64,000 nt of DNA from a virus: IMG/VR virus record IMGVR_UViG_3300023184_000031, positions 1 through 64,000 of that record; one strand, written 5' to 3'. The position numbers and the translations under genes were made by a program. Positions 26,305-54,533 of this stretch are shown in pieces. The notes below the pieces were generated by a model. That model did not search any database. It was not told where the DNA came from and saw nothing but the letters and a program-made list of their open reading frames with translations. Every line of letters starts with the position of its first letter. The first letter of the stretch is position 1.

Positions 26305-27726
26305 ATGAATTTAGGACAATACTTAGCTAATACACTATTAGAAGCAGAAAATCAACCAACAATAGCATTATTCCCAGGGGTATTTAAACCACCACATAAA
26401 GGTCACGTTGATGTAGTAAATAAACTACTAAAAGCGGCGGATCAAGTAGTAATACTAATATCACCAAAAACACGTGAAGGTATTACTGCTGATGAAAGTG
26501 TTGCTGTTTGGAACTTATATAAAGATAAAGGTCTATTTGATGGTTCAGTTGAAATTAAAGTATCATCATCACCAACACCTGTTGGAGAAGTATATGATGT
26601 TGTTAAAAAAAATCCCGATAGTGAATTTTTAGTAGCATTTGGTAAAGATGAAATTAGTCGTTATAAGAATATTGAAAAATTCTTTAATGTAAAAGTATTT
26701 GATGCTGACTCAGTTGAAGGTGTTGATTCTACTAGTTTGCGTATGGCACTAATACAGAAAAATGAAGATGAAATATCAAAATTACTTCCTGATGGTGTAT
26801 CAACAGATGAATTTTTAACAGCATTGAATACTAAACCAGAAGAAAAATCTGAAGAAACACCAACAGAACAACCACCAACTGAACAGCCAACACCTGAACA
26901 ACCATTACAAGAATCACCTCCAATTAATTTTGAAGATGATGCTTATCAAGATTATGTAATGCAAAATCAAGATAAAATAGAAAAAGCAGCTGCTGTATTT
27001 AATTTACCAATCCCTGATATGAACTACGCTTTTGATAGTGGAGATGAAGTAGTATTGAATGATGATATGTGGGATAAGCTGCAAAATAGCAAATCATATA
27101 AAATGAAAACATTAGATGATGCTATTCAACATTCATTAAAATTAGGTATAAATCCTAAACCATATATTGATCAAATTAAAGCTGGTAAGGATATGCCATT
27201 ACCACTTGTATTATGTTATGGACAGGATAAGTATTATTTGGTAGGTGGTGAAGTAGTATTATCCTTATATAGAGCTTTAGGTTCAATTCCAACTGTACTA
27301 CAGGGCACATTAAATTTACAAACTAAACAATTACATCAACCTACTTCTCTTGGTGAAGGTTTAAATAATGATACCGATAAACAATTATTAAAGAAATTTA
27401 TTGATTTCGCTATTAAAGAATTAGGCATAAAAAAACCACCAACATCCCTTACATTATCAAGAGATAATGGTATGGCTAAAGAAATGCATACATTTGGTTC
27501 ATTTAATCCTAATAACGATAAAATATGGTTGTATGTTAAAAACCGTAACATGGCTGATTTGCTACGTACATTAGCACATGAATTAGTACATCGTAAGCAA
27601 GCTGAGGATGGTAGAATAGATTACAATAGTGGTGAAACGGGTAGTGAAATTGAAAATGAAGCAAATGCTCAAGCAGGTGTATTATTAAGAAAATTTGGTA
27701 AACAAAACGAAGAAATATATCAATAA
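26305..27726 (+). CDS. tagged nucleotidylyltransferase / ParB-like / metallopeptidase fusion
   Basis: 473 residues with several modules. Residues 1-13: tag-like helix NLGQYLANTLLE followed by A. Residues 18-175: nucleotidylyltransferase (cytidylyltransferase-like) fold with H31-K-G-H34 (PPHKGH) and the closing VDSTSLR (140-146), as in NMN adenylyltransferases. Residues 178-205: Pro/Glu/Thr linker with PTEQP repeats. Residues ~215-340: unknown helices then a ParB/sulfiredoxin-like strand set (LPLVLCYGQDKYYLVGGEVV). Residues ~355-473: zinc peptidase with H425-E-L-V-H429 and a Glu-rich helix (GSEIENEANAQA). Looks like a polyvalent protein carried in the head. Late promoter precedes it. Confidence 0.75.
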   Translation: MNLGQYLANTLLEAENQPTIALFPGVFKPPHKGHVDVVNKLLKAADQVVILISPKTREGITADESVAVWNLYKDKGLFDGSVEIKVSSSPTPVGEVYDVVKKNPDSEFLVAFGKDEISRYKNIEKFFNVKVFDADSVEGVDSTSLRMALIQKNEDEISKLLPDGVSTDEFLTALNTKPEEKSEETPTEQPPTEQPTPEQPLQESPPINFEDDAYQDYVMQNQDKIEKAAAVFNLPIPDMNYAFDSGDEVVLNDDMWDKLQNSKSYKMKTLDDAIQHSLKLGINPKPYIDQIKAGKDMPLPLVLCYGQDKYYLVGGEVVLSLYRALGSIPTVLQGTLNLQTKQLHQPTSLGEGLNNDTDKQLLKKFIDFAIKELGIKKPPTSLTLSRDNGMAKEMHTFGSFNPNNDKIWLYVKNRNMADLLRTLAHELVHRKQAEDGRIDYNSGETGSEIENEANAQAGVLLRKFGKQNEEIYQ

Positions 27727-29201: not shown

Positions 29202-30143
29202 ATGATTAAATTAATAGATTTATTAAATGAAGATAATTTTCAAAGTGAGGAACCATCATCATTCTCTAATGAACAAGAAGTAATCCAAGACTATATAAAT
29301 GAATTGCCATCAGAAGGAACAACCATGAGTGATGTTATGGAAGATGCTAAAGATTACCCTCATGCTTTTCAGCTAAGATTATTAATGAGAATAGCAAAAG
29401 ATGGATTATTAAATCTCAGCAACAGTAATATAAAAGTTAAACCAGAGGGAGTATTGCAAATGTTTAATACTCAATCTGATATAGCATATAACGCTTTAGC
29501 TAATTATAATCTAAATGAAAAAGCGCCCTGCTGGAAAGGTTATAAGCAAATTGGTATGAAGGAAAAAGGTGGTAGGGAAGTACCAAACTGTGTTCCTTTA
29601 AATGAATTAAGTCCTACATCAGTTGGTGTTCCTGAATTTTTAGAAAAAGCAAAAAAACAACAATATCCTTATTTACAGTTTCCATCATTTGAAGCTTTAG
29701 AAGAGTATGTGTCGTATGCCTCTGGTAAAGAATTTAATGAATTAAATACTGAAGCTGGGTTAAATGAAGCGTTTTTTATTGGTGAAGATGATATAGATGA
29801 ATATGATGTAGATGAAAATAATATTAATGAAGTAAAAGATTTTATTAAATTTCTAAAAAAATACTTTACAATATTAGCGGAAGCACAATGCGATTGTGTT
29901 TATGAAGCTGAGTATCATGGTCGTCAAGTATCACTAGGCAAACCAATGCAAGGTGATATTAAGAAATTTAAAGTATACGTTAAAAATAGCAAAGGCAAAG
30001 TCGTAAAGGTTAATTTCGGACAAAAAGGAATGAACATAAAAAAGAATAATCCTGTAAGACGCAAAGCATATAGAGCAAGACATAACTGTAATAACCCAGG
30101 ACCACGTACTAAAGCAAATTATTGGTCTTGCAGAAAATGGTAA
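29202..30143 (+). CDS. MIKL-tagged multi-motif protein
   Basis: 313 residues. Tag-like start MIKLIDLLNE. Two modules familiar from virion-linked proteins of large phages: PCWKGYKQIGMKEKGG with VPNCVP (about residues 109-131), and the basic C-terminus RRKAYRARHNC and KANYWSCRKW. An acidic linker (DDIDEYDVDENN) joins them. The C-terminal part probably binds nucleic acid or metal. Function unknown. Confidence 0.55.
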   Translation: MIKLIDLLNEDNFQSEEPSSFSNEQEVIQDYINELPSEGTTMSDVMEDAKDYPHAFQLRLLMRIAKDGLLNLSNSNIKVKPEGVLQMFNTQSDIAYNALANYNLNEKAPCWKGYKQIGMKEKGGREVPNCVPLNELSPTSVGVPEFLEKAKKQQYPYLQFPSFEALEEYVSYASGKEFNELNTEAGLNEAFFIGEDDIDEYDVDENNINEVKDFIKFLKKYFTILAEAQCDCVYEAEYHGRQVSLGKPMQGDIKKFKVYVKNSKGKVVKVNFGQKGMNIKKNNPVRRKAYRARHNCNNPGPRTKANYWSCRKW

Positions 30144-30146
30144 AAT

Positions 30147-32816
30147 ATGAGAGCAATAGATAGATTTATATTACACGTAGTTCACAATTGGACAAATGAG
30201 TTAAATGAAGCTTATAGCGAAAATGCTATCAAAGCCTTTATTAAGAAATTTAGTGAAGAAGCAGACGATTTGAATATCGCTATATCAGAACCTCAATTAA
30301 GAGCATACATCGATCGTTTTGATACATTAAAAAATTCACCTAAAATTACTAATAAAGATCTTAATAGTGATTATTGGAATATATCTAAATTAATTAGATT
30401 AGTTACCTCTACTAAAGGTGCTGAAGTACCTGAAGAAGTTGAATCTACCCCAGATGTTGTTTATAATCAGGATGGTTTAGTTATATACAATGGTTCTAAA
30501 GAAGGAAACTGTTTAACTTATGGTAGTGGAGAAAAATGGTGTATTACTAGAGGATCATTTGGTAGTTATAGATATGATGCTAGCAGAAAAAACCCAACAT
30601 TCTATTTAGTAAAAGATAATAATTTATCTGATAGTGATAATAAAAGTTTTTTTGTTGTTGTAGTAGGTAGTGATAATACATACAAAGTATCCGATAGATC
30701 AAATAATGACGTTGGCGGCAGAGGTACAGAATGGGAAAGATGGGAATCATGGTCATTTGTTGAACAAAACTTTCCATCAGTCAGAGGATTAAGAAGTGTA
30801 TTTAAATACATTCCTTTATCGTCTGCAGAAAAAATGAATCAGTCCTATAAACATAGTGCTATTCCTATTAGAGAATTTATAAAATTTCCTTATTCTGTTA
30901 AAGAACAATATTTAGTTGTTAGAAAAGGTAACGAACTATTTACAGATGTTAGTACAGATGAATTTGTTTCAAAATATCTTCCTCAATACCCACAATTAGC
31001 TACATTCATTTCAACTAACGCTGGTATTGTACCTAATGAAATTTTAGTAAAACATTTAGATAAATTTTCTAATCAAGATACAAGATCTATTATAGCTAAT
31101 ATGAGGGATAAAGTTAAAATTGACCTTTTATCCTCTGAATCTGTTCCATTTGCTGTTAAAAAATTATTAGTAATGGTAGATAAATGGAATGTACCATCTA
31201 ATGAAAGATTATATATTACTAAAGATGGTAATGCCATTGTTAAATTAAAATTTGAAGAAGAAATATCTGTAGGTGTATATACAGCAGAAGATGATTATCC
31301 AAACATCAAATTAAATCAACGTACATCAAAATATTTACTTGATTATCCTAAATTAGATGAATTACCATTTAACAGTTTACTTAAATTAGCTACTGATGGT
31401 ATTGTAAATAAAGAATTCCTTGCTAAAGTTATTGAAAAAGCCAAATCAGAAGAAAACTCAGCTATTATAGTTAAAAAAGTAGAAGATGGTGAAATATTAG
31501 TTGATGCTAATTCATTCTCATCGTATAAAATAAAAGACGGTAATATAACTAAAATACCGTTTACTGATGAAGAAGTACAAACAGCTTTAGGAGAAGAAAA
31601 AGAGAATACAGCATTCCAACAAGGTGCTGTTAATATAGTAAAAGACACAATAAATAATTATGAAAATATTCCTCCAACTATTGATAAAGATGCCTTCGTA
31701 TCTATTGTAAAGTCAACCCCATATAATAAAAGAACATTTACCTCTGATAATGCAAGAGGTCAACAAATACTTCTTGTACCTGATGGAGAAAGCAGATTTG
31801 CTTTATTTACAAGAAATACAGAAGAATTATATAATTTTTCTACTGACCAGGATTATGGTAATGGAGGTGATTGGAGAAGAAGAGATACTACTGATTGGAT
31901 GGATGAAGGAGCATGGAGAGCATATTTCACTTATTTAAGAAATGAAAATAAGTTTTATGAAGGAAGTAGATTAGCTCAATGGTTTAGAGGATCATATACT
32001 AATAATGAATGTCGAAAAGCATGGTTTAAAGCACAACCACCACTATCCCCAACAGATCAATACGCAGTAGCAGTAACAGCTGCTAATTATTATCTTGTTA
32101 ATAAAGCTAACCCACGTGAATCCCTTAAATTATCAGATTCAGGTAAATTAGTTAAAGCAAATATTCCATCAGCATTAGCTCGTCAATTATTAGGTACCAC
32201 ACAAACCCAAGCTACACCAACAGCCCCAGCAGCACAATTTGGTGCTGGACAAGCAGTAGCAGCACCATTACGTACAGGTAGAGGTAGACCAGCAGGTGTA
32301 CCTAATGCTCCACGCGCCGCTGCACCAGCTGTAGATGCAGGTGGAGATCTAAATATAGGTGAAATAATGGATGAAACAGGATTACAAACTGCATTTATGC
32401 GTATGCCACGTTCTGATTATAGACGATTAAATGTAACAACAGGTGTACGTGTTAATCCAAATGGTGATAGAGGTGCTGCTCGTCGTAATAACCAATTAGG
32501 AGCAGCGGGTCGCGTAGGTAAAGTTATTGAAGTTGGTTCTAGCAAAATATATTTTATTCGTTTAGCAAACCAATCTATAATAGCATCTATCAATATACAA
32601 CCAGGCAATAGAAATTATATATTATTTCCTAATGCTCAAGGTAACGTAATGATACCAATGAATTCACCAGCTGAATTAATGCAAGTATTACAACAACGTA
32701 ACTTGGCTGAAGTACAACAATATATGGTACGTGAGTATATTGCTAATAATCCACAACATATTGATGAAGTAAAATCATTACTAAGAAAACACATAGCTGA
32801 AACCATAAATCAATAA
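30147..32816 (+). CDS. large tagged multidomain accessory protein
   Basis: 889 residues. N-terminal amphipathic helix ending NELNE|A (residue 21). Residues ~110-215 hold a repeat-seen phage module: GNCLTYGSGEKWCIT, NPTFYLVKD, a Gly-rich loop and WERWESWSF. A middle region (~500-640) repeats a similar W-rich pattern (DWRRRDTTDWMDEGAW). An Ala/Pro-rich linker with an AT-hook-like RTGRGRPAG (~710) leads to a C-terminal beta domain. Ends SLLRKHIAETI. Family and activity unknown; size, tag and modularity fit a packaged polyvalent protein. Confidence 0.6.
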   Translation: MRAIDRFILHVVHNWTNELNEAYSENAIKAFIKKFSEEADDLNIAISEPQLRAYIDRFDTLKNSPKITNKDLNSDYWNISKLIRLVTSTKGAEVPEEVESTPDVVYNQDGLVIYNGSKEGNCLTYGSGEKWCITRGSFGSYRYDASRKNPTFYLVKDNNLSDSDNKSFFVVVVGSDNTYKVSDRSNNDVGGRGTEWERWESWSFVEQNFPSVRGLRSVFKYIPLSSAEKMNQSYKHSAIPIREFIKFPYSVKEQYLVVRKGNELFTDVSTDEFVSKYLPQYPQLATFISTNAGIVPNEILVKHLDKFSNQDTRSIIANMRDKVKIDLLSSESVPFAVKKLLVMVDKWNVPSNERLYITKDGNAIVKLKFEEEISVGVYTAEDDYPNIKLNQRTSKYLLDYPKLDELPFNSLLKLATDGIVNKEFLAKVIEKAKSEENSAIIVKKVEDGEILVDANSFSSYKIKDGNITKIPFTDEEVQTALGEEKENTAFQQGAVNIVKDTINNYENIPPTIDKDAFVSIVKSTPYNKRTFTSDNARGQQILLVPDGESRFALFTRNTEELYNFSTDQDYGNGGDWRRRDTTDWMDEGAWRAYFTYLRNENKFYEGSRLAQWFRGSYTNNECRKAWFKAQPPLSPTDQYAVAVTAANYYLVNKANPRESLKLSDSGKLVKANIPSALARQLLGTTQTQATPTAPAAQFGAGQAVAAPLRTGRGRPAGVPNAPRAAAPAVDAGGDLNIGEIMDETGLQTAFMRMPRSDYRRLNVTTGVRVNPNGDRGAARRNNQLGAAGRVGKVIEVGSSKIYFIRLANQSIIASINIQPGNRNYILFPNAQGNVMIPMNSPAELMQVLQQRNLAEVQQYMVREYIANNPQHIDEVKSLLRKHIAETINQ

Positions 32817-33401: not shown

Positions 33402-34151
33402 ATGATTAAATTAGCTGAATTATTAGATAAAGTAGGTCAAGAAGACGATGACATCAACAATGATGGTAAGGTAGATAAAACAGACAAATATCTTCTTAAA
33501 CGCCGTAAAGCAATAGCTACTAATCTTAAGGAAAATGATACTCCAAAGCATAAGATCATTGCTCAATTGATGGGTCCTGATTTTTTCTTATCTAAAAAAC
33601 CAGAAAGTAGTTGGGATGATAAAGATCACGATTTATTTAATCGCATTACAAAAATGGCTCAAGAAACAGGTAAAGTTCCTAAGCTAAAAGAAAATCAAGA
33701 CCATGAAGTATCAATGGCACAAGCCAGTTTAAAATCAATTATTAAATCAGCCGCTCAACTAATGCTTAAACTAGGCAATATGGAGCGTGATATACCAGGA
33801 TGGATACAAGATCACATCACAAACGCTGAAAATTATATTGATCAAGCATCTCAAGGATTCCACGAATTAAACGAAGGTCCTCAAATTGGTAAACTTCCTG
33901 TAAGAATATATAAACTTGTTCAAGGAAAAGAAACTGAATTATCTAAAATTAAGAATCCTAAAGTAATAGATTATATTAAAAAGAATTCTGAAAACATAAA
34001 TATAGAGGATTTAGCTAAACTTCTTTCTGTACGAGAGCAAGTTGCTTTACAATATATAAACGCTTTAAAAACATTAGGAGCTTTAGTATCAAAAAATCCC
34101 ACTACTAGTAAACCTATGAGTAGTAATGATGTTGATGATTTATTTAATTAA
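33402..34151 (+). CDS. MIKL-tagged protein with EF-hand-like loop
   Basis: 249 residues. Tag-like start MIKLAELLDK. Next a dockerin/EF-hand-like loop DINNDGKVDKTDKYLLKRR (about residues 17-35), which could bind calcium. Residues ~105-160 hold HEVSMAQASLKSIIKSAAQL and IPGWIQDHITNAENYIDQA, a helical module common in virion-linked proteins of large phages. The C-terminus looks like a winged-helix/HTH unit. Unknown role. Confidence 0.55.
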   Translation: MIKLAELLDKVGQEDDDINNDGKVDKTDKYLLKRRKAIATNLKENDTPKHKIIAQLMGPDFFLSKKPESSWDDKDHDLFNRITKMAQETGKVPKLKENQDHEVSMAQASLKSIIKSAAQLMLKLGNMERDIPGWIQDHITNAENYIDQASQGFHELNEGPQIGKLPVRIYKLVQGKETELSKIKNPKVIDYIKKNSENINIEDLAKLLSVREQVALQYINALKTLGALVSKNPTTSKPMSSNDVDDLFN

Positions 34152-50979: not shown

Positions 50980-51603
50980 ATGAAACAACTACTCATAGAC
51001 CATACACCCTTTAAAATAGCTAAGCTAACGCTTACCGAAGGTAAATCTACCAACGGTAGAATGTTACTTGAAGGTAAACTACAAGAAGCTGAAGTGAAGA
51101 ATGGTAACGGCCGCAGATACCCACGCGAAGTATTAGAACGTGAAGTCAACAAATACATACAAGGACCAGTAAAAAATAACAATGCTATGGGAGAATTAGA
51201 TCACCCAGAATCATCTGTTATTAATTTATCAAATGTATCACACAATATTAAAAAAGTGTGGTGGGATGGTAATGATTTGATGGGACAACTCGAATTACTT
51301 AACACACCATCAGGCAAAATTGCAATGGAACTTGTTAGTGCTGGAATACCATTAGGTATATCATCACGCGGTATGGGTTCTGTTAAGCAAATTGGCGAGA
51401 CTGTAGAGGTACAAGACGATTTCGAATTATTATGTTGGGATTTAGTATCAGTACCATCAACACCAGAAGCATATATGCATCCAGTTGGTAAACTTTCAAC
51501 AATGAATGAAGGTAAAAAATATATTGTTAGAGATTATAGCAGAATCAATTCATTAATAACTGAAATAATTTGTTCACAAACAGGTGTTTGTCCGCTCTGT
51601 TAA
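50980..51603 (+). CDS. 21: prohead core protease (gp21-like)
   Basis: 207 residues, like T4 gp21 (212). Catalytic signs of the S78-type prohead proteases: GELDHPE (His75), PLGISSRGMGS (Ser128/129) and CWDLVSVPSTPEA (Asp154 region). It cleaves scaffold, internal proteins and capsid precursors after Glu during head maturation; likely sites here are LVTE|A in the capsid protein and the N-terminal tags. Three Cys near the C-terminus (IICSQTGVCPLC). Confidence 0.9.
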   Translation: MKQLLIDHTPFKIAKLTLTEGKSTNGRMLLEGKLQEAEVKNGNGRRYPREVLEREVNKYIQGPVKNNNAMGELDHPESSVINLSNVSHNIKKVWWDGNDLMGQLELLNTPSGKIAMELVSAGIPLGISSRGMGSVKQIGETVEVQDDFELLCWDLVSVPSTPEAYMHPVGKLSTMNEGKKYIVRDYSRINSLITEIICSQTGVCPLC

Positions 51604-52883: not shown

Positions 52884-54533
52884 ATGAACATTCAACAACT
52901 TTTAGAATCGTCTAATCAGTACAAAGTAATTGCTGATGACGCAAAAAAACTTTCCCACAAGTGGGGTAAGTCTGGCCTTTTAGAAGGCATTAAAAGCGAA
53001 ACTGATCGCAACACAATGGCTATGCTATTGGAAAATCAGGCAAAACAATTAGTTACAGAAGCTTCTTCAACTGGTACTCAAACTCCAGGTGCTGGTGCTT
53101 ATTCTGGTGAATCTTGGAACGGCGTTGCTCTTCCATTGGTACGTAGAGTATTTGGTGAAATCGCTGCTAAAGAATTCGTTAGTGTACAACCAATGAACTT
53201 ACCTTCAGGTCTTGTATTCTATCTTGATTTCAAATATGGCACTAATATTAATCCATTCACTAGTGGCGGTTCTTTGTATGGCGCTAATACTTCTACAAAC
53301 GTAACTGATATTACTTCAGCTTCATTATATGGTGCTGGTAAATTTGGTTATTCAATCAATCAGTATACTCAGTCAAGTATTACTGTAGTAAGTGGTTCTG
53401 CTACATGGGCTGATTTTAACTTTGATTCAGATTATTCATCTTCTGCTGCTGCTGGTCAATATGCTAAAATTCAAGTTCCATTACCTAATGGCTTTGATAA
53501 GAATGGTGTAAGAGCCTTTACAATTGTATCAGGTTCTACTATTGCTGCTACAGATGTTTTACAAAACTTTACAACTCTTAATGTTGCTCAAACTACAGCT
53601 TCATTTTTTGTTACTGGTAGTAAAATTTCTCAAGCTGGTACTGGTTCTTTCGTTTTGTATTATGATTTTGCTCCTCAAGATTCTGGTAGTGGTCAATTCC
53701 GCGGTGATTTTGAAGATGGTGTTACTAAACAACCAGGTAATGCTGCTCCTTCAACAATCAATATCCCAGAAATTAACGTTCAGTTAAAATCTGAAGCAAT
53801 CGTTGCTAAAACTCGTAAGTTAAAAGCACAATGGACACCGGAATTCGCTCAAGATCTTAACGCTTACCATAGCGTAGATGCTGAAGCTGAATTAACTGGT
53901 ATCTTATCTCAATATATTTCAATGGAAATTGATTTAGAATTGTTAGATATGTTGATTCAAAACGCATACACTACGGATGCATGGTCTGCAATTAATAACA
54001 CAACTATTGCTGTTAGTGGTACTGGTACTAGTACAGTTTTATCTAACCCAACAACTAATACAGCTGGTTATTACAATACACAAGGTGGTTGGTTCCAAAC
54101 TTTAGGTACTAAATTACAAAAAGTTTCTAACAAAATCCATCAGTTGACTTTAAGAGGTGGCGCAAACTTCATGGTTTGTTCTCCTACAGTTGCTACAATT
54201 ATTGAGTCAATCCCAGGATTTGCTGCTGATGGTACAGGTGAAAAATTAGAGTACAACTTCGGTATCCAGAAAGTAGGTAGCTTGAACAGTCGCTACAAGG
54301 TTTACAAAAATCCGTATATGACTGAGAACGTTATCTTGATGGGTTACAAAGGATCTCAATTCTTGGAATGTGGTGCTGTATTTGCTCCATATGTTCCATT
54401 AATCATGACTCCATTGTTATACGATCCAAGTACATTCACACCAAGAAAAGGTTTGATGACTAGATACGCTAAGAAAATGATCCGTCCTGATTACTATGGT
54501 AAGATCTATGTTAGTGGTTTGAATACTATCTAA
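52884..54533 (+). CDS. 23: major capsid protein (gp23-like)
   Basis: 549 residues (T4 gp23: 521). N-terminal propeptide starting MNIQQLLE|SS with the likely maturation site QLVTE59|A60, matching T4 LTE65|A66. Then LVRRVFGEIAAKEFVSVQPM, PSGLVFYLDFKYG, the central VDAEAELTGILSQYISMEID (cf. T4 MDADAELSGILA), ANFMVCSPTVATIIES, YKVYKNPYM and the closing YYGKIYVSGL. HK97-type shell subunit. A strong terminator follows. Confidence 0.95.
   Translation: MNIQQLLESSNQYKVIADDAKKLSHKWGKSGLLEGIKSETDRNTMAMLLENQAKQLVTEASSTGTQTPGAGAYSGESWNGVALPLVRRVFGEIAAKEFVSVQPMNLPSGLVFYLDFKYGTNINPFTSGGSLYGANTSTNVTDITSASLYGAGKFGYSINQYTQSSITVVSGSATWADFNFDSDYSSSAAAGQYAKIQVPLPNGFDKNGVRAFTIVSGSTIAATDVLQNFTTLNVAQTTASFFVTGSKISQAGTGSFVLYYDFAPQDSGSGQFRGDFEDGVTKQPGNAAPSTINIPEINVQLKSEAIVAKTRKLKAQWTPEFAQDLNAYHSVDAEAELTGILSQYISMEIDLELLDMLIQNAYTTDAWSAINNTTIAVSGTGTSTVLSNPTTNTAGYYNTQGGWFQTLGTKLQKVSNKIHQLTLRGGANFMVCSPTVATIIESIPGFAADGTGEKLEYNFGIQKVGSLNSRYKVYKNPYMTENVILMGYKGSQFLECGAVFAPYVPLIMTPLLYDPSTFTPRKGLMTRYAKKMIRPDYYGKIYVSGLNTI

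Follow-up and report, generated by a model that had tools for sequence, protein, structure and literature searches.

In phage T4, the prohead protease gp21 cleaves after L/I-x-E, an N-terminal stretch of 10 residues is enough to package IPIII, and the internal proteins, each of which is one functional unit, mostly lose an N-terminal propeptide only (PMC9026906), while Alt is processed at its N-terminus and its C-terminus (ITE-6, LTE-619; PMC9026906, PMC5694885). Once injected, the T4 internal proteins inhibit type IV restriction enzymes (PMC12373910). Polyvalent proteins combine several unrelated enzyme-like domains, including zincin, ParB-like and nucleotidyltransferase domains, and Iyer et al. 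(2017) drew the analogy with polyproteins, assigning the processing to embedded zincins (PMC5512222). Here we analyse P0001, a 473-residue protein encoded on the + strand at 26305-27726 of a 64,000-nucleotide stretch (hereafter the window; positions 1 to 64,000 of IMG/VR record IMGVR_UViG_3300023184_000031, a 170,255-base T4-like phage record), which is likely to be a head-targeted cargo polyprotein that a gp21-type prohead protease splits into separate injected effectors. P0001 resembles IPI-III and Alt in starting with a short amphipathic tag that terminates in (L/I)xE and in sharing its genome with a gp21-type protease, from which its packaging is predicted, and it resembles the polyvalent proteins in its domain content. 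It differs from the T4 internal proteins in carrying several unrelated domains behind a single tag, every joint having its own site, and from the polyvalent proteins, for which zincin processing was proposed, in having prohead-protease motifs at the domain borders. The separate elements (capsid tags, gp21 cleavage, polyvalent proteins) are already known; what would be new is a multi-enzyme cargo chain bordered by prohead-protease sites, and the open-access literature searched yielded no account of prohead-protease cleavage of a polyprotein in a phage head.

The open reading frame (ATG at 26305, stop at 27726) is confirmed as genuine, and the opposite strand of the same interval is full of stops. 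The initial annotation had read P0001 as a domain mosaic behind a capsid-type tag, which our analysis supports, and every motif that it named (H31-K-G-H34, the STSLR end, PTEQP, HELVH and a downstream Glu) lies where it was placed. AlphaFold (63-row alignment) gave a mean predicted local distance difference test (pLDDT) score of 85.7, with the three domains mostly above 85, and a predicted template-modelling score (pTM) of 0.42, so that in the model the domains are confident and have no fixed mutual arrangement (Table 1). The sole stretches with pLDDT below 50 are residues 180-210, which include PTEQP (186-190), and 342-351. Only four of the 36 Glu residues belong to an [LIM]xE site, namely E13 at the tag end, E203 and E351 in the two linkers, and E372 within a helix. 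When the 18 full-length relatives are aligned, each linker has a single column that never varies (18/18), E203 in the first and E351 in the second, and the residue two positions upstream is always L, I, V or M; the tag site is likewise kept in 18/18. What had been described as a 'GE/LE-rich middle' is really a set of three conserved (L/I/V/M)xE sites.

Table 1. Features of P0001 and of related genes in the window (↓, predicted cleavage).
Feature	Position	Strand	Basis
Capsid-targeting-type tag MNLGQYLANTLLE↓A, residues 1-13, ends LLE↓A	26305..26343	+	predicted helix 3-13; site kept 18/18
Candidate packaging tag stretch of P0001, MNLGQYLANTLLEA			
HxGH nucleotidyltransferase domain, residues 19-176	26359..26832	+	PF01467, Foldseek, motif conservation
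Disordered P/T/E/Q linker with predicted prohead-protease site LQE203↓S (26905-26916)	26833..26937	+	pLDDT<50 at 180-210
ParB/sulfiredoxin-like domain, residues 212-341	26938..27327	+	AlphaFold alone pLDDT 87.5, pTM 0.80; weak Foldseek matches
Second disordered linker with predicted site LGE351↓G	27328..27360	+	pLDDT<50 at 342-351
Zincin metallopeptidase domain, residues 352-473	27358..27723	+	invariant catalytic residues; secondary-structure order
Tagged neighbour MIKLIDLLNE↓D with CWKGYKQIG...NCVP module	29202..30143	+	similar module in S-CREM2 virion protein gp160
889-residue neighbour: tag MRAIDRFILHVVHNWTNELNE↓A, then GSGEKWCIT module	30147..32816	+	same module inserted into polyprotein of L007-L009, L026
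gp21-type prohead (head maturation) protease, proposed cutter	50980..51603	+	phrog_207 E=4e-55; own LxE sites
gp23-type major head protein, candidate maturation site VTE59↓A	52884..54533	+	phrog_138 E=2e-71; sequence

The same sites mark module borders across the relatives. Counted over 46 non-redundant proteins, [LIM]xE reaches 84 sites per 1000 residues within tags and 76 within junction windows, compared with 8 in domain interiors and 12.5 elsewhere, which makes it about 10-fold denser at module borders than in domain interiors; two control motifs counted in these proteins were not enriched ([LIM]xD, 13.9 vs. 15.9; [^LIMV]xE, 60.8 vs. 65.1). A border site is present for 44/45 zincins, 21/21 ParB-like domains and 24/24 nucleotidyltransferase modules, where it occupies the tag position, and a first count had found it at 52/53 zincins against 23% expected, the exception being a stand-alone untagged copy in S-SRM01. 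Three further modules (KWCI, ADP-ribosyltransferase (ART)-like and HAD phosphatase) were examined by profile searches within the fetched loci once the hypothesis had been formed. The KWCI module begins directly after a site in 33/33 cases behind many unrelated upstream contexts, whether its own tag (MRAIDKFILHVVHNLFPLNE↓Y), a second tag type (FTVGWWKEVLDLNE↓Y) or the interior of a polyprotein (SLGE↓GLIREY, WPLKE↓Y, SLNE↓Y). The ART-like module follows a site in 9/9 cases, and a site precedes 14/16 fused copies of the HAD phosphatase, compared with 24/25 stand-alone copies that have neither tag nor site. Former tags are kept as internal sites upon fusion (LILE↓A in L009; IKLKNILKE↓A in L056), and one protein of 2,214 residues (L048:2200-8844) contains about 16 borders that read [LI]xE-IG[VI]NxP or [LI]xE-IS, spaced 82-369 residues apart. 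Modules recombine freely, almost always directly behind an (L/I/M)xE site. The C-terminus of the zincin itself reads I(Y/F)E in 31/36 cases in which another module follows, and never ends in Q, whereas IYQ is found in 21/39 cases in which the zincin ends the protein (Fisher p=5e-6).

The window encodes T4-like head genes for terminase, portal, gp21-type protease, gp23-type major head protein and head-tail adaptor. VTE59↓A of the gp23-type protein sits where, by comparison with T4, the maturation cut would be expected. The closest parallel for a packaged enzyme of this kind comes from the T4-like cyanophage S-CREM2, whose published virion proteome includes the cytidylyltransferase gp154 (PMC10665884). 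By fold family, tag (MKNFSSFLTE↓A) and HxGH motif, gp154 is like P0001, and it differs in that no zincin or ParB-like module was seen in it. Other non-structural virion proteins of S-CREM2 start with the same kind of tag, which, judged by eye in two stretches of that genome, is carried by 6/10 non-structural virion proteins vs. 0/23 others. The S-CREM2 virion also holds a pol-beta-type nucleotidyltransferase (gp156) and a protein with a CWKGY-like module (gp160), both recognised by motif only; a CWKGY protein is encoded by the window phage and a pol-beta nucleotidyltransferase is carried by relatives of P0001.

Packaging of P0001 is predicted with high confidence, and cleavage of both of its linkers is probable. 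The 13-residue N-terminal helix would bring the entire chain into the prohead core, where the gp21-type protease would cut at LLE13↓A, LQE203↓S and LGE351↓G, leaving a nucleotidyltransferase, a ParB/sulfiredoxin-like protein and a zincin as three separate proteins in the head, to be ejected with the DNA into the next host. For the first of these, the initial annotation of a nucleotidylyltransferase is well founded: Pfam CTP_transf_like (PF01467) matches at 24.3 bits, above its cut-off (21 bits), with E=4e-5, a PHROG cytidyltransferase matches at 1.9e-8, HxGH (HKGH, 31-34) and Arg146 of STSLR (142-146) are nearly invariant in 27 relatives, and the predicted fold is that of PPAT/NadD/NMNAT (target TM up to 0.69). 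P0001 thus combines the Rossmann-like fold, HxGH and C-terminal S-x-S-x-x-R type motif of the PF01467 superfamily, within which Foldseek leaves PPAT, NadD and NMNAT unseparated. The chances that this domain acts on a nucleotide cofactor seem evenly balanced; if so, it would most likely make or restore an adenylylated one, of the nicotinamide adenine dinucleotide (NAD) or coenzyme A type, and putative NAD restoration against an NAD-depleting defence is an attractive possibility. In one relative (L053:4927-6945) the HxGH motif has changed to HKGN and the C-terminal Arg is gone, so this copy, as judged from its residues, is probably inactive.

The middle domain had been called ParB/sulfiredoxin-like, and of this the fold is suggested by Foldseek against PDB, where the best matches are nearly all ParB/sulfiredoxin proteins (PadC/Noc/Srx), each of them weak (best E=0.08, probability up to 0.97, TM ~0.4). 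The conserved Arg/GERR-type nucleotide-binding motif of that superfamily was not found in P0001, where the Arg motif has degenerated to GGEVVLSLYR, while GNTRL is retained in some relatives (e.g. L037); in the window phage the domain probably lacks ParB-type nuclease activity. Identification of the third domain as a zinc metallopeptidase holds up well. HELVH (425-429; 27577-27591) is followed by ENEAN (450-454), with E450 and E452 on the next helix, the HExxH and second-helix Glu are invariant in 28 relatives, and the predicted order of elements (helix, three strands, HExxH helix, Glu helix) is that of a zincin. The PHROG metallo-protease match is weak (8e-4), the MPTase-PolyVal model (PF18818) saw only 2/28 zincin members (best E=0.067), which does not place the domain in that family, and sequence searches of solved structures with the zincin and ParB-like domains returned nothing significant. 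Whether the zincin acts on a host protein is similarly an even call; its target would most likely be a host or defence protein. PADLOC gave no match for P0001. In L064:5393-6900 the nucleotidyltransferase and zincin lie in separate adjoining open reading frames, which may be a natural split or a frameshift.

The alternative that survives best, itself unlikely, is that P0001 is packaged, loses its tag only and works as an intact multidomain polyvalent protein, the LxE motifs of the linkers being incidental or structural. This would be in keeping with the fate of most T4 internal proteins (PMC9026906) and with the vRNAP of phage N4, which is packaged unprocessed (PMC5512222), but it leaves unexplained why otherwise unconserved disordered linkers keep E203 and E351, and no other residue, invariant, and why unrelated modules almost always have the motif at their borders, though it frequently gives way to IYQ when no module follows. 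We consider it quite improbable that the embedded zincin, rather than the prohead protease, separates the domains by autoprocessing, as was proposed for polyvalent proteins (PMC5512222). The zincin active site is intact, but an (L/I/V)xE border also precedes modules in zincin-less proteins, such as the 889-residue window protein, the capsid protein has VTE↓A, and the motif fits gp21 specificity. Since the same motif borders both zincin-less proteins and the capsid protein, the gp21-type prohead protease is the likely cutter; the splitting into parts that the initial annotation foresaw gains support from site conservation and free module exchange. The role in host takeover or counter-defence that it suggested is speculative. 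Least probable is that P0001 is an unpackaged fusion of metabolic enzymes which acts inside the cell during infection, for while phages also commonly encode cytoplasmic nucleotidyltransferases and phosphatases, and the adjacent HAD gene mostly lacks a tag when it stands by itself, the tag is present in all relatives, the stretch near the head genes is rich in tagged proteins (25/45 vs. 5/33) and tagged enzymes of the same kind are found in S-CREM2 virions.

Several points weigh against processing of P0001 into separate injected effectors by the prohead protease. The border windows were set after the pattern had first been noticed with the zincin, the relatives are not independent, which makes the p-values optimistic, and LxE is a short motif. 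The IYQ cases are clustered in one clade, the gp21 cleavage specificity in the window phage is inferred, this phage being known here from sequence alone, and the middle domain, a distant and degenerate ParB/sulfiredoxin-like one, looks catalytically dead. The authors of the S-CREM2 study also caution about contamination and co-purification (PMC10665884).

More broadly, we lean towards the view that the prohead protease has been recruited to process cargo across a large T4-like phage group whose hosts are probably Bacteroidota, such that one tag imports two to about seventeen LxE-bounded, interchangeable effector modules that mature into separate ejected proteins. This would amount to a polyprotein strategy in tailed phages, with modules swapped as whole cassettes between protease sites. 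If the reading of P0001 as a cleaved cargo chain is true, the LxE grammar would let sequence alone reveal packaged phage proteins and the start and end of each injected effector, many 'hypothetical' mosaics would become lists of discrete, testable early effectors, and the delivery of several proteins behind a single capsid tag would have a natural blueprint.

The whole of P0001 has 7 close IMG/VR relatives (65-79% identity) and its zincin domain alone more than 80. The best isolated relative is from Flavobacterium phage immuto, in which a primase, an exonuclease and one further gene precede a 907-residue 'NadR' protein (QQO92100) in a neighbourhood similar to that of P0001. QQO92100 has the HxGH nucleotidyltransferase and zincin in the same order, after a Pol-beta nucleotidyltransferase, and differs in being longer, in having no recognised ParB-like domain and in its identity of ~35% to P0001. 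A genome-collection scan with the zincin gave 2 matches, one in an uncultured Bacteroidetes bin; together with the immuto relative, this points to a Bacteroidota host, which is not established.

Within the 23423-61000 part of the window, [LIM]xE falls within residues 5-26 in the 25/45 genes counted above, the 5/33 being those elsewhere in the window, and a MIKLxxLLxE start is common to many of its genes, suggesting, from these gene starts, that this part may encode a large packaged proteome. The module APCWKGYKQIGMKEKGGREVPNCVP of the gene at 29202-30143 is common to several PHROGs and resembles a stretch of S-CREM2 gp160. A tagged gene just upstream of the L009 polyprotein (L009:6169-7140) has a pol-beta-type GSAGKKDISGDIDL motif and is absent at the equivalent place in the window phage, and a regex search of the window phage for 'EIGVNKP' repeat borders of the L048 type found no such array. 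Several of the small modules of L048 are alike, and most are without PHROG relatives. Single-protein IMG/VR scans with the ART-like and KWCI modules returned close relatives only. The C-terminal module of L006, taken by eye for an ADP-ribosyltransferase, had no Pfam, PHROG or PDB support and is called ART-like only; L060 has the curated ART-PolyVal domain (PF18760). A second tag-like motif, approximately F-x(3)-WW-x(3-4)-L-x-L-x-E, occurs both at N-termini and internally just before modules (L054, L060, L068-L078 and others). Lastly, the gene at 33402-34151 contains a Dockerin/EF-hand-like stretch (DDDINNDGKVDKTDKYLLKRRKAI), and a near-identical stretch is found in gene PSSM2_195 of cyanophage P-SSM2, which adjoins that phage's tagged cytidyltransferase.
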